Source: Gammaproteobacteria bacterium (GTDB taxonomy: Bacteria > Pseudomonadota > Gammaproteobacteria > Xanthomonadales > Wenzhouxiangellaceae). From it: DNA of 33,236 nt. The notes beneath the pieces are model-generated. The model was not told where the DNA came from, made no database searches, and was given only the letters and a program-made list of their open reading frames with translations. A program made the position numbers and the translations under genes. Within the stretch, counting starts at the first letter, position 1. Each line of letters opens with the position of its first letter. The DNA is taken from positions 1 through 33,236 of the forward strand of contig PWYW01000022.1 in the NCBI GenBank assembly GCA_003567685.1, in the 5' to 3' direction. Positions 2,569 to 10,987 of the stretch are shown here, in pieces.

Positions 2569-4089
2569 ATGCGTTGGTTTCAGGCTGGAATTTCAGAGGT
2601 AATGTCCCACTTGGCCGGACGTCAATGGGAGCCTCTTGGCGTGACGATTGTTGCCGGCGTGCTGCTCTTTGGGCCGGTATCGCTGATGGCAGATGACGGG
2701 CCACAAGTGCCCGAGGTTTTGGCGCCGGCCCTTCTGACCGAGCCACACGGCTTTCAGCCAGGCCAGCTGATCTATCGAAACATCATCAATGATCGCACGA
2801 CCAATGTTGCTTATCACAACGGCAACGTATTTACCCACAACGTCACGGGAGTGGGTCGGCGTGCCTGGCGATGGGACGATTTGTCGGACGTTCAGTCGTT
2901 CGAGGAATTTGACTTTCCCGGTGGAATACCGCTGTTCAATGATCAGGGCAACCATGCCCATACCAAGATGGGCCCATGGCTGGGCGGTCGCTGGGGGTTC
3001 CAATTGCGCTATGAAGGGCCGGGTCTGAACGTTCGTGATGGCAATTTCCCGCCCGAGTGGCGTTTTCATCAGGAGCAATCCGGCACCCGTCACAACCTTT
3101 ACTGGCCCTGGGGACTGGTCTTCGATTGGGTGCAGTACGACAACCAGAACAATGGTGCCGTGATCTACCGAGCTGGCGAGCGCCTTTACGAATTCAATCC
3201 GCTCAACGAATACGGTGTCACGGGTAACGGCATCCTGTTGGGCAATATCCTGTTCATCACGTCTGATGAAACAGCCAACGGCATCCTGTCTTTCGACATC
3301 AGCGCGATCTTCAATGAACCACCGGCCCCCCCGGTGTTGCTGGACAAGCTGGCTGGCCCCTTCGGAGGCTACATTGCTGTTCCTTACAAGAATTACCTGA
3401 TTTTGAGCCGCCGAGTGGGCCGGACTGTTGATGTGATTGACAGCAGCGATCCAACCAACTTGACCTTTGTTACCTCGATTGATACCGGTGGGATCAATTC
3501 CGGCGTGCCCTACGTTCAGGCCCAGGACAACTACATCTTCACCCAAAGTCGCAAGATCAATATGGACACTTTTGAAATCGAGGTGTCCTTTGACGAAGAC
3601 GATATTGATCGTCCGCCAGGCAGTGTGCCGGGTGCTTTGGATATTTCCCAGTACATGCGACCGGTCGGGCCCTACGTGATTACCGGCGGCATGAATGCGA
3701 GCGGTCGGAATGGAGTGGGAATCTGGGTGCATCAGGAGGGTCCGGATTTACGGGCCCCTTATGTTGGGTGGCACATGCCGAGGCCCGGCCAGACCAACTT
3801 CCCGGTGGGTGCGCCGATCAGTTTGCTGATCCACAAGACGCTGGAAACCTTCACCATCGTCAATGGCGAGTCGATCATTCTGCGTGAATTGGGCACCACC
3901 GACCCGATAGATGCCTGGACATCCTTCGCGCATGATGGTGTCCTTACCCTGACGCCCATGGAGTACCTGGAAGCCGACACGATTTATGAGCTGGTGGCGG
4001 CATCAAGGATGCCGCTGGCAACGGCATCGAGCCCTACAGCTTTACCTTTTCCACCGGCAGCGCTACGGGTGGCAACCAGAGCCCGGTGA
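2569..4089 (+). pseudogene. N-terminal part of a giant secreted beta-propeller/cytochrome protein, ended by a frameshift
   Basis: This 506-codon frame is the front of a longer protein that continues in another frame. A signal sequence is visible (hydrophobic VTIVAGVLLFGPVSL, then LMADDG); translation may start at 2569 or at the ATG at 2602. Residues about 50-390 look like a secreted beta-propeller (repeated D/N-rich strands such as LSRRVGRTVDVIDSS). From about residue 398 an SbsA-type Ig-like (Big_5) domain begins (PGQTNFPVGAPISLLI ... LTLTPMEYLEADTIYELV). After codon GTG 3994-3996 this frame turns into nonsense, while the frame one base back reads GGIKDAAGNGIEPYSFTF, the expected end of the Ig domain. 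One lost G in 3994-4000 explains it. Either the gene is broken or the base is a sequencing error. Confidence 0.75.
3994..4001 (+). other. Frameshift site joining the two halves of the giant protein
   Basis: The sequence reads CTG GTG GCG GCA in the upstream frame. Adding one G after GTG (GTG GGC GGC ATC AAG) restores a continuous Ig-like domain and runs straight into the downstream frame, which starts with the same domain's last strand and a PKD domain. The site is a short G-rich run, not a classical slippery heptamer, so a one-base deletion or an assembly error is more likely than programmed frameshifting. Confidence 0.75.
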
Positions 4090-7000
4090 TTGAAGGTTTT
4101 TCGGCTTCGCCGTCTCGAACGGAAGCGGGTCAGACGGTAATACTGACCGTTGCGGCGTCCGACCCGGACGACGACCCGATGGAGTTTCGCTTCATTCCCG
4201 GCGATGGCTCGCCAGCAACGGAATGGTCCTCGGAAACAACGTTCAGCCATACCTACCAGAACGATGGGCATTTCGATGCGCGCGTTCAGGTGCGTGACAT
4301 CAAGCCTGATGGTTCAACCTCGCAGGTAACGGCCAACACGGTGATCACGATTGCGCCGCCGCCCGAGGTGTTCCCCACGCAGTCCAACCAGATTGCGCTG
4401 GATTCGAGCAACCGCCGGGTGTTCAATGTCAACCCCGACTCGGCGAGCGTAACGGCACTGGACGCCGATACCAACGCCATCCTGTTCGAAGTGTTGCTGG
4501 ATGCGGTGCTCGGCCTTCCCGATCAGACCCATGTTGATCCGCGCTCCATCGCTTTGGATAGCCAGGGACAGTTGTGGGTGGCTGCCTACGGCATCGACCA
4601 GGTCATTGTTTTGAATTCCGACAACGGGGCGCTGGTGCAGTCGATTGAACTGGGCTATGGTGCCGCTCCCATAGGCGTGCTGGCCAGCCCCACTGGCAAT
4701 GCCATTTTTGTATCGACTGAAGGACGGGCCAGCAGCAACCCCGGACACGGTCAGGTAATACGTTTTGCGACATCAGGCGCCGAAACCGGCAGAAGGGATC
4801 TTGGCCCAACGCCCCGTGCCATGGCCATGACCAGCGACGGTAACCGCCTGTTTGTTTCCCGTTTCATCTCAGACGAGAACCAGGGCAATATCTGGGAAGT
4901 CAATCCGAGCTCCATGGCGTTGACTCGCACTTTCAATCTTTATCGTGATCGCGGCGCGCGCGGTTTTGACAGTGGCTCCTCCGGAAAAGGCGTACCGAAT
5001 TACGTAGGTGGCCTGGCCATTTCGCCAGATAATGAGTGGCTGTGGTACGCCGCCACCAAGCCGAACACCCAGCGCGGTGCCTTCTTCCGCCAGGACACTG
5101 AATACAATCTGGATCTTACCCACGACTCTACCGTCAGACCCCTTGCCGGTCGCATCAACCTGATCAGCAACGAGGAACCCAACGTAGGCAACTGGTCGGA
5201 TGCCACCAACAATCCGGCCATTCGCATTGACCTGAATAACAGTGATTCGCCCTCATCCATCACCTTTTCGGACCGGGGCGATTATGTCTTCGTCACCCGG
5301 CAGGGCAACAACAGCGTGGCGGTCTTTGACCACCTTCGACTGCTGGACGGCGGGGTGCGCGCCACCATCTGGCGCATGCCGGCAGGCGCCGCGCCGCAGG
5401 GTATCTTGCTGGATCACGACACCGGCAACCTATTCGTCAACAATTTCATGGACCGCAGCCTGTCGGTTCATCCCATCGCCGGTTTCCTGAATGCCGGGGA
5501 TCGCACGCTTGACGAGGCGCAGATTGTCACGGCCAGCCGGGAATTTCTGTCGCCACCGGTACTGCTGGGCAAGCAGATCTTCTATCACGCGTCGGACCAG
5601 ATGAGCTTCGAGAATTACATCTCTTGCGCGAGCTGCCATTTCGACGGTGGCCACGATGGACGGACTTTCGATTTCACCCAGCGCGGGGAGGGCCTGCGCA
5701 ACACCACCGACCTGCGCGGGCGTAGCGGAATGGGCCACGGGAATGTCCATTGGACGGCCAATTTCGATGAAATACAGGATTTCATTATCGATATTGTCGA
5801 GCACCAGCTCGGCAGCGGGTTTCTCCCCGAGGGTGAGTTGCCCAATCCTCCGCTCGGTGCACCGAACTCGGGTCGCAGTCTCGAGCTTGATGCCATGGCT
5901 GCTTACGTGGCCTCGCTGGATGCCGACACGATTCCGCGCAGTCCTTTCCGGCAGGCCGATGGTTCAATGACGGCCGACGCGATGGCTGGGGAGGAGCATT
6001 TCCTGGCCCAGAACTGCGCCAGTTGCCATGACCCGTCATCGGGCTACACCGACAGCAGCAGCAACCCGGTAACTCTCCACAATGTAGGCACGCTACGCGA
6101 TAGCAGCGGTTTCCGCCTGGGTGAGACGCTGCCCGGCATTGATACGCCCACGCTGCTGGGCATTCATCACACGGCACCGTATTTCCATGACGGCTCTGCC
6201 GAAACGCTGGAAGAGGTATTCATCAAGGCCGGCGGGCGCAGGATCCAGGCCGAGGACGGACAGCTTTCGGGTCCGGAAGCCAGAATTCGTGAGGACATGG
6301 TGATCAACATGGACCACAGCGCCCATGGCACGGCCGTCCAGCTTCGCTCCCTCGGCGATGCGGTCACGTTTTCCCAGATCGATGGCGGACCGGGTGGTCT
6401 GGGCGCCGTCGAGCTTCGTTACGAGGCGGTGCACGAGCGTACCGTTCGGCTGGTCGTCAATGGCACCAGCTATGAACAGCTCGTGCCGGGTGCGGCGACT
6501 ACCCGACAATGGCGTCGCGTCTTTTTCAACGACGTTGAATTCAATGCCGGCACAAGCAATACGCTGCGAATCGAGCTGGCGGGCAATCCGGGAGCCGGAG
6601 GAAATCGCGGCTTTCAAGTCGATGACTTCACCGTGACCACTGCGGGTGATCGCGCCCTGGCCGAACCACACCGGCGGGTATTGAATATGCCGGCCACGCA
6701 GCGCCAGGAACTGATTGCCTACTTGCTGCAGCTGGATGGCTCCAGCCTCGGTGCCACACCAGAGCCGGTTGCGCCGTCCCCACTGACGCATCCGGTCTCC
6801 ATTGAAGTTGCCGAAGGCAATGGCGCGGCATTCTCGGGCTCATTTGCTGGTTTCCCGGCACCGTCCCTGCAGTGGCAGTTCCGCGCTAACCAGACTGATG
6901 CCTGGACTCCGATCAACGACCAAACGGGCAACCAGTTCACCATTTCCGCCGTCCAGCCTGCCGATGCCGGTTACTACCGCCTGGTGGCCAGCAACGAGGA

Positions 7001-7919
7001 GGGAACTGCGGCGAGTAATGCCGCCAGCTTGACCGTTTTGCCGCCCCCACCGCCGCCAACCGTCCCAGTTCAGGGACTTGTGGCCGAGTGGCTATTTGAA
7101 GAGCCCGACGGCAACACGGTCTTTGATACCGGTCCGTTTGAACATCACGGCACCCTGTCCAACCAGGGCGTCAGTCGCATTGAGGGTGTTGTGGGCGATG
7201 CGCTGTTATTTGACGGCGCCCATGCCAGTGTGGTGGAGTTGCCCAGCTTCGAGCTTTCCGGGCAGGCCGTGACCTTCTCTCTATTTGGTCGGGTGGACGC
7301 TCAGACTGTCGGCGACGCACGTTTCTTCGGTAAAGCTTTGGACTATCCGTCACAAAGCCATACCTGGATGCTGAGCACGCTGGACAATCGCCGGCTGCGG
7401 GCGCGTCTGCGGTTGGGCAACAACACCGTGGAGCTGATTTCGCCGAACAACGTCTTCGAGTTGGGTCAGTGGCATCATCTGGCGATGATCTATGACGGCT
7501 CGACCTTGCGCATTCTCGTTGATGGCGAAACGGTCGCTTCAACCAGCGCAAGCGGCTCCATCGCCCAACAACCGGACAACCCGGTCGCCATTGGTAATCA
7601 CCCGCAAGCGGGTGCTCGGTCGTTGAACGGTGCGATTGACCAGTTCAGGATTTATGACCGCGCCCTGACAGCCGATGAAATCGATGCCCTGGTCGAGGAG
7701 CTTCCGCCAGTGGAGGGTCCCGAGCCTCCGGCGAACGATCGCTTGTTCCATGATCGCTTCGAACCCATGGCCCTGCGATTGTCGCCGCTAGGACTGGTTC
7801 CCGGTGCGGGAATCTACGGATTGGTCTGGGCAGGCGAGGGGGCCATGCCGCATTGGTCCAGCAAGCGCTGCCAGGCCAGGATGTGGTTATGGATGGATTG
7901 GTCAAAGGCTTGCCAGTAA
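3997..7919 (+). pseudogene. C-terminal part of the giant protein: PKD, beta-propeller, di-haem cytochrome, CBM-like, Ig and LamG domains
   Basis: Downstream of the frameshift the protein runs about 1,306 codons; an ATG at 4086 gives 1,277 residues and that numbering is used here. Order: PKD-like domain (residues 1-90, SDPDDDPMEFRF), YVTN-like beta-propeller (about 95-470), and a MauG/cytochrome c peroxidase-like domain with two CASCH haem sites (Cys514-His518 and Cys644-His648). That domain is interrupted: after HDGSAETLEEVF a CBM6/35-like insert (about 716-855) appears before the expected closing helix AEPHRRVL...ELIAYLLQLDG. An Ig-like domain (about 893-985) and a LamG/concanavalin-like domain (about 996-1201) follow. 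A DRLFHDRFE motif ends at residue 1226; 51 extra residues after it overlap the opposite gene. Likely secreted or surface-bound redox protein; substrate unknown. Confidence 0.7.
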
Positions 7920-8869
7920 CCGGTTTCTGACTGGTCATCCAGCACCATGGTGAAATAGCTTTCCAGCGCGCCGCCAGGTGCTGCGTCGTGCAGCTGGCTC
8001 ATAGCCAGTAGCGGTGGCATCAGTTGCTGGCGGACTCGTTGGACGTCAGCCAGGTAGGGCTGGACGTGGCCGACGAAGACGGCAATAAACACGTTGTGCA
8101 TGATTTCCGACTGGCGGTTCGGGCGACCGGCGGGACAAAGCGGGCGCTCGTCCAGGCGCTGTTCGATCAGTCGGGTAGCGTCATTCAGGCGAGTGGTGAC
8201 GAGGATGGCGCTCATCAGCGCCTGGCCAGCCAACGGGTCGTTGTTCCAGCGCTGGTAGACCGGGTCGAGCGTCAGCACGTTCTGCTCAAGTTCACCGTCC
8301 AGCAGGCGGCTGATCAGCTCGTTCACCTGCTCGGCGTTGCGTGCGCTCAGGCTGGCCTGGTGAAGATCCGGCTGGATGGGCAACGGGCCGCGGGAGCGGG
8401 CGAAGTGACGCTCGATTTCGCGGTTTGCCCAGACCGCGTTCCAGGCCACCTCGGGCAAGGTCTGGCGCTTTTGCGCGGCGGCGTCTTCCAGTTGCTCGAC
8501 CAGCGATTCGCGCTCCAGCGTCTCGGCGCAGGTTTCGGCGGCCAGGATGAACCGGCGCTCGACATCCAGCCGGGTCAACGGGTGCGCAACCCGGCCCAGA
8601 ATTGAATTGCGCTCGCCGACCACGAACTGCACGTCACAGCCGTACAGGCCAAGAAAATCGATCATGCTGATGCTGATCGGCTCGACGTGGCGACTGCGCT
8701 CGCGTGCTTGCGGAAAGCGGGGCGCAGTGGGGATGCGGCTGGGTGCCTGCTCGACATCCAGCACCCGGGCCAGGCGCTCGTTGTACTCGTCCAGCATGGA
8801 TTCCGGCTGCGAGAAGGGGTCGCAGGCCGCGAGCAAAACAACCGCGATGATCAGGCAAATGGCACGCAT
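7814..8869 (-). CDS. DUF3080-type lipoprotein
   Basis: A 351-residue predicted lipoprotein. The signal ends in VVLLAAC with Cys16 as the lipidated residue. The following segment (MLDEYNERLARVLD, then ISMIDFLGLYGCDVQFVVGERNSILGRV) matches my memory of DUF3080, a gammaproteobacterial family of unknown function. The rest is mostly helical, with arginine- and glutamate-rich stretches. It is convergent with the giant cytochrome gene, and its last 106 bases overlap the end of that frame. It lies 100 bases after frmB on the same strand, behind a likely terminator, so it probably has its own promoter. Family assignment is from memory; no function is known. Confidence 0.75.
   Translation of the reverse strand: MRAICLIIAVVLLAACDPFSQPESMLDEYNERLARVLDVEQAPSRIPTAPRFPQARERSRHVEPISISMIDFLGLYGCDVQFVVGERNSILGRVAHPLTRLDVERRFILAAETCAETLERESLVEQLEDAAAQKRQTLPEVAWNAVWANREIERHFARSRGPLPIQPDLHQASLSARNAEQVNELISRLLDGELEQNVLTLDPVYQRWNNDPLAGQALMSAILVTTRLNDATRLIEQRLDERPLCPAGRPNRQSEIMHNVFIAVFVGHVQPYLADVQRVRQQLMPPLLAMSQLHDAAPGGALESYFTMVLDDQSETGYWQAFDQSIHNHILAWQRLLDQCGMAPSPAQTNP

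Positions 8870-8969: not shown

Positions 8970-10987
<2,018 letters not shown>

Follow-up and report, generated by a model that had tools for sequence, protein, structure and literature searches.

The window analysed here, 33,236 nucleotides at the start of contig PWYW01000022.1 from a gammaproteobacterium of the Wenzhouxiangellaceae, raises the question of what a carbohydrate-binding-like segment is doing inside a di-haem cytochrome domain. A preliminary description, made from the letters alone, had placed a CBM6/35-like insert at 6215–6655, close to the second haem, and spoke of an undescribed surface redox system with propeller, PKD, Ig and LamG domains. An insert nested in a CCP/MauG-like di-haem domain is indeed found there (Table 1), as seen in profile searches, in an AlphaFold2 model and by comparison with insert-less relatives. 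The accompanying domains are all present in ORF2, although the LamG and Ig modules lie outside the common core of the insert-bearing proteins; the reading frame ends no more than 70 residues past the insert match in 49 of 94 insert-bearing frames (two, L065 and L131, are cut). The match of ORF2 to CCP_MauG (PF03150) exceeds the gathering cut-off (44.3 vs 25.6 bits), while the Big_5 match of ORF1 is sub-threshold (E 0.0011; 20.1 bits vs a cut-off of 23.6).

Table 1. Features of the two reading frames in the window (nucleotide positions of the window; residue numbers are those of ORF2 unless ORF1 is named; rows are aligned insert-bearing sequences).
Feature	Position	Strand	Content or basis
ORF1, 506 aa	2569..4089	+	Leader-like hydrophobic stretch (by eye); Big_5-like Ig at ORF1 residues 395-476
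ORF2, 1277 aa	4086..7919	+	In order: PKD; propeller; di-haem domain enclosing the CBM-like insert; Ig; LamG
PKD domain, residues 5-79	4098..4322	+	PF00801, 32.4 bits (cut-off 23.5)
Beta-propeller, about residues 95-470	4368..5495	+	Domain search, Foldseek
CCP/MauG-like di-haem domain, first part, residues 486-719	5541..6242	+	Profiles
Haem I CxxCH, residues 514-518	5625..5639	+	Both Cys and the His in 90/90 rows
Trp556	5751..5753	+	90/90 rows; lines up with the Trp in the FWDGRA segment of bacterial CcP
Haem II CxxCH, residues 644-648	6015..6029	+	Both Cys and the His in 90/90 rows
HDG motif ahead of the insertion point, residues 701-703	6186..6194	+	His701 in 90/90 rows
Nested CBM6/CBM35-fold insert (by profile and model), residues 720-856	6243..6653	+	Profiles, AlphaFold2, Foldseek
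Closing helices of the di-haem domain, residues 859-885	6660..6740	+	Alignment, AlphaFold2
His862, presumed distal ligand of haem II	6669..6671	+	88/88 rows with a residue there
Ig I-set domain, residues 901-984	6786..7037	+	PF07679, 39.3 bits (cut-off 23.7)
LamG/concanavalin-like domain, residues 1047-1199	7224..7682	+	PF13385, 101.8 bits (cut-off 27.6)

ORF1 represents the N-terminal part of what is a single protein in relatives, matching them up to residue 475–479 with 33–51% identity over 423–488 columns to 12 relatives (picked for frames longer than 1200 aa) in which this part is continuous with that of ORF2. The ORF2 frame resumes the match from about 3990–3999. Since the match thus passes from one frame to the other, and the 12 relatives are continuous, a frame change near 3990–4000 splits the gene in the window; it may be genuine or may stem from the assembly. 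Judging by the short frames of a few other relatives (L017/L090, L065), breaks of this kind are probably not unique to the window. At its other end (7749–7919, forward strand) ORF2 runs 51 residues beyond an HDRFE motif, which is similar to the GFE-type C-termini seen in several relatives (L017, L028, L119, L138, L139). This terminal part overlaps the 3′ end of an opposite-strand ORF (7814–8869), and a second frame change possibly lies at 7749–7919. By eye, the C-termini of 12 relatives carry variants of FESGDTSAW (L027, L032, L042, L045, L046, L054, L056, L063, L069, L091, L163, L164), and in three others (L073, L143, L146) a hydrophobic stretch with basic residues forms the end, like a sorting tag. 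The protein is probably secreted and probably exposed at the cell surface, given the leader-like N-terminus, the tag-like C-termini of some relatives (both judged by eye) and the PKD, Ig and LamG modules.

About 137 extra residues (720–856) separate the TLEEVF segment (707–712) from the closing helices (859–885). Among 152 distinct core domains scoring at least 60 bits, 94 run on into the insert, 56 can be seen to close without one and two (L192 and L211) are cut before the site; as the set mixes two sources and was in part chosen for the insert, the ratio is not a frequency. The consensus of the insert-less forms reads HDGSAATL-DV----N----HG-T--L---E---LVAYL, and that of the insert-bearing forms HDGSA-TL-DVF--AGG-[insert]-LA-A-PHR-V--L-------L-AYL. 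The insert match in L131 covers the first 85 profile positions and is followed by a different sequence up to the contig end, which is probably a broken one. In three insert-less proteins (L186, L180 and L190) a RIEAE-Y or VIEAESF stretch, resembling by eye the start of a CBM6/35 domain, follows the closing helix, so that such modules may also lie downstream of the haem domain.

The first set of loci, the best 80 of 321, had been chosen by similarity to an insert-containing query, three of whose six peptide patterns fall inside the insert. As this set is blind to insert frequency, searches were made with the core alone (profile A3, residues 486–717). Each search counts its centre genome, and since at most 9–11 candidates were scored per genome the counts are lower bounds. 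At E ≤ 1e-25 the core was detected in at least 31 of 250 genomes of the order, and in at least 11 of 297, 11 of 288 and 25 of 294 genomes in the phyla of G521, G522 and G523, to which the record titles Sulfidibacter (L053), Verrucomicrobiaceae (L044) and Planctomycetota (L077) respectively had led. At E ≤ 1e-10 it was detected in at least 10 of 274 genomes of the class, six of them weakly (43–48 bits).

Searched singly, the window insert gave a sub-threshold Pfam match to CBM_35_2 (E 0.0016–0.0023; 18.4–18.9 bits vs a cut-off of 23) and none in the PDB. A profile of 87 homologous inserts, on the other hand, matched solved regions of carbohydrate enzymes (nine distinct sequences, E 1.7e-15 to 3.6e-7), including 5x7o (1.7e-15), Xyn30D (4.4e-10), Lmo2446 (9e-10) and esterase D, 2w46 (1.5e-8). 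The Xyn30D module is titled CBM35 (4qb1), and the 2w46, 5x7o and Lmo2446 regions we also take to be CBM35. Individual members of the insert family matched CBM_6 (33/87) or CBM_35 (11/87) at E ≤ 0.01. AlphaFold2, run on residues 478–889 from 87 sequences and modelling the chain without haem, predicted a separate beta-sandwich that is not part of the cytochrome fold (mean pLDDT 87.8; pTM 0.88). Nearly all of the 50 Foldseek matches listed for this haem-plus-insert model are CBM6/35-type proteins, with TM scores normalised by target of 0.69–0.81 for isolated CBM6/35 domains. As judged by profile and predicted structure, then, the insert has the CBM6/CBM35 fold. It is similar to known domains of these families (Xyn30D 4qb1, CsCBM6-3 and others) in fold, in a probable calcium-site Glu/Asp and in conserved VNG, RY and W positions, and differs from them in the loss of the region-C Asn and in its nesting within an oxidoreductase domain. 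The separate CBM-type sandwich, together with the 56 relatives that close without it, indicates an insertion rather than chance resemblance or an ordinary element of the fold.

The haem domain itself led to hydrazine synthase (HZS). The best PDB match of core profile A3 was 5c2v_C, HZS gamma (E 7.8e-19), and a profile of the insert-less relatives (A5) matched the same chain at E 3.2e-34, extending through the His of its MHG motif (chain position 293), which was aligned to the HG His of these relatives. Haem gammaII of HZS is ligated by His229 and His332 (PMC12607021), and His106 of HZS gamma is named in section 8 of PMC12758564. In 5c2v_C, His229 is the His at position 190, within the second CxxCH, and His106 the one at position 67; with the resulting offset of 39, position 293 is His332. 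A His follows the HDG segment in all 53 insert-less tree rows (51 within a fixed stretch and two slightly further on), and among the 94 insert rows the counterpart of His862 is missing in L131 and L065, both of which are cut. By alignment, His862 is the presumed counterpart of HZS gamma His332 and thus the presumed distal ligand of haem II. With His862 in the place of His332 and just after the insert, the insert sits immediately before this presumed ligand, and the proximity to the second haem claimed in the preliminary description holds in sequence. In the AlphaFold2 model His862 (model position 385) lies eleven residues past the last insert strand (366–374), and block pLDDT is 97 at the first junction and 97–98 at the second, so that a flexible linker is predicted at neither.

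Kinship to HZS extends to the propeller. For the propeller-containing model the best Foldseek match was 5c2v chain B (E 2.3e-16), which we take as HZS beta, and the best of the 50 matches listed for this larger model are propellers. No di-haem protein is among the 50 matches listed for the haem-plus-insert model, and the kinship of the haem domain therefore rests on sequence profiles. HZS beta and gamma of 5c2v, the best PDB matches by fold and by profile, resemble the window protein in the order of propeller and CcP/MauG-like di-haem domain and in the counterparts of the haem II His pair; in HZS gamma, however, the domain closes directly behind the MHG His and no insert intervenes. According to section 8 of PMC12758564, the Trp of CcP/MauG-type enzymes is catalytically important and HZS gamma has His144 where the CcP Trp aligns, unlike the window protein with its Trp556; the same paper describes HZS beta and gamma as fused in Scalindua. 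Matches to NCBIfam were all far below cut-off, the best being MbnH (TIGR04039; 54.5 vs 362.85 bits, residues 687–747), ahead of the HZS gamma model (44.7 vs 625 bits) and the beta–gamma fusion model (43.8 vs 1250 bits; E 1e-11). In bacterial CcP and MauG the distal ligand of haem II is Met or Tyr. The window protein shares with MbnH, bacterial di-haem CcP and MauG the two CxxCH motifs and the HDG segment, and with CcP the Trp, but would differ in a presumed distal His862 on haem II and differs in the nested CBM. On profile and alignment grounds we place it in a branch of the CcP/MauG superfamily that joins a propeller to a di-haem domain as in HZS beta and gamma. Judging from homology to HZS gamma and CcP, haem I, with the CcP/MauG-type Trp556, would be the catalytic haem and haem II a bis-His electron-transfer site.

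Judged by the titles of their records, with labels as given, loci with the insert belong to Pseudomonadota groups, Verrucomicrobiota, Acidobacteriota, Planctomycetota, Hydrogenedentota, Sumerlaeota, Myxococcota or 'Deltaproteobacteria', and Binatia, and both forms are found together in four genomes (G030, G049, G058, G051). A quick maximum-likelihood tree was built from 146 core sequences, 93 with and 53 without the insert, after L019 (with the insert, 75.6 bits) and five rows that lack it (L107, L176, L192, L211, L212) had been dropped. Presence of the insert required three changes on this tree, against a mean of 43.2 when shuffled. The free quick tree placed the insert-less L186 and L152 inside the insert clade; holding the 93 insert rows as one clade gave a log-likelihood 52.4 above that tree (p-AU 0.888). 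A single clade is thus not rejected; the result agrees with one origin of the insert, the most likely history, without being proof of it.

The surroundings of the gene name no partner. Among clusters of neighbouring frames of at least 130 aa in the best 80 of 321 loci, many of them on short contigs, the commonest, protein-kinase-like by eye, was found in 11 loci and the next in six; the idea of a conserved operon was rejected on this count. In the window itself, translations at 8970–10936 on the reverse strand have the look of what are presumably an S-formylglutathione hydrolase and a glutathione-dependent formaldehyde dehydrogenase, side by side. The HZS_alpha domain (PF18582) was not detected in the genome of the window; controls of the first search were unmatched, but the same search gave matches above cut-off in 14 of 37 genomes (G003, G010, G031, G039, G044, G046, G055, G521, G525, G526, G527, G679, G1113, G1154), two of the window's genus among them. 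In these 14 genomes HZS_alpha and the core gene are on different contigs or no less than 0.8 Mb apart, with the proviso that breaks in draft contigs could hide nearness.

The hallmarks of CBM6 and CBM35 are a region-A Trp and an invariant region-C Asn, and Glu/Asp residues serve a structural calcium (PMC9843283). The PDB domains aligned to the insert profile show N-x-D at region C, whereas the Asn is found at the equivalent column 844 in none of the 88 inserts with a residue there. Column 846 holds Asp in 79 and Asn in nine of 88, and Glu723 is kept in 81 of 90 rows, both being equated with the calcium site by sequence. Trp809, a possible counterpart of the region-A Trp, is present in 82 of 90 rows and His747 in 52 of 90. 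Going by the alignment, the inserts seem to have retained the scaffold and the calcium site but to have lost the residue that usually anchors the sugar, which weakens the idea that the insert places the redox centre on a polysaccharide. BT0996-C, however, has Ala135 at region C, two residues before the calcium ligand Asp137, and still binds polygalacturonate (PMC9843283), so that absence of the Asn is a warning rather than a refutation.

The explanation that we favour, and to which we give somewhat better than an even chance, is a surface di-haem enzyme of an HZS-like propeller branch in which a CBM6/35 domain, most likely inserted once, serves as a docking platform beside haem II. The domain would have entered a short loop that links the HDG segment to the presumed distal His of haem II, and the sandwich, joined to the ligand segment with no flexible linker predicted, would form a platform that keeps a polymer (glycan or matrix) or a redox partner near enough for electron transfer. 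With its partner held near haem II, the enzyme would work at the cell surface; that partner could be a protein as well as a glycan or matrix polymer. Less probable, although we take it seriously, is a CBM fold that binds no sugar and acts as a structural cap or as a protein docking surface for the electron partner of haem II. The total loss of the region-C Asn fits such a role, the nine insert columns conserved at 90% or above (G, N, R and W residues) can be read as scaffold, and the insert, 22–45% identical to that of the window (87 rows) where the core is 53–70% identical (45 rows), behaves like a module under looser constraint. Against this stand the polygalacturonate binding of BT0996-C (PMC9843283), which lacks the same Asn, and Trp809 with His747, which could form a putative site. 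A ligand-gated haem, in which a polymer on the sandwich would shift the ligand segment beginning just past its last strand, loosen or tighten His862 and so switch electron flow to haem I, strikes us as unlikely.

Direct oxidation or cleavage of a polymer by a RoxA-like di-haem oxygenase, the CBM-like insert presenting the polysaccharide, is more doubtful still. A CBM fold within an oxidoreductase domain would suit it, as would weak matches to RoxA-like_Cyt-c (E 3.7e-5) and RoxC (E 0.0096), but the former (PF21419) reaches 23.6 bits against a cut-off of 26.7 over only 26 residues, the best PDB profile matches are HZS gamma and CcP, and even the commonest neighbour is shared by just 11 of 80 loci. 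That the protein is a working hydrazine-synthase-like enzyme we consider very improbable: the order of propeller and di-haem domain, the His332 counterpart and the match to the beta–gamma fusion model point that way, yet this match falls far short of its cut-off, HZS_alpha was not detected in the genome of the window and is distant or on another contig in the 14 of 37 that have it, and where HZS gamma has His144 (PMC12758564) the window protein has Trp556, in line with the Trp of CcP. The last alternative, that the segment simply belongs to the cytochrome fold, has nothing found in its favour and is refuted by the insert-less relatives; with the insert profile, the AlphaFold2 sandwich and the Foldseek matches to CBM domains also against it, we attach practically no weight to it.

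The docking-platform enzyme that we prefer belongs to a wider kind already on record. Distant HZS beta–gamma homologues combining propeller and di-haem domain have been described from environmental bacteria of many phyla (Hagglund et al. 2025, PMC12758564); like the window protein, they carry the conserved Trp in clades I–III of that paper, which focuses on copies beside alpha homologues. The 'undescribed surface redox system' of the preliminary description is thus half right, since the propeller and di-haem combination was known, while the nested CBM has no report in the literature searched. A carbohydrate module is not mentioned in the portion of PMC12758564 considered here, from whose main text the word 'carbohydrate' is absent, nor does the corresponding portion of PMC7691419, on a Wenzhouxiangella strain, contain anything on this protein. 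A search of openly available papers, with PMC12758564 covered by its main text, gave no report of a nested CBM in MauG, CcP, di-haem or HZS proteins among the matches listed. The insert-bearing proteins add a branch, for which no functional study was found in the literature searched, to the HZS beta–gamma homologues discussed for the origin of anammox, and their insert-less sisters, some in the same genome, provide a natural comparison. If the haem were ligand-gated after all, this would be a contact-sensing surface oxidoreductase distributed across phyla and a new regulatory principle for di-haem enzymes. More generally, the fold of a binding module placed just before a presumed axial haem ligand would unite binding at the surface with redox chemistry in a single unit.
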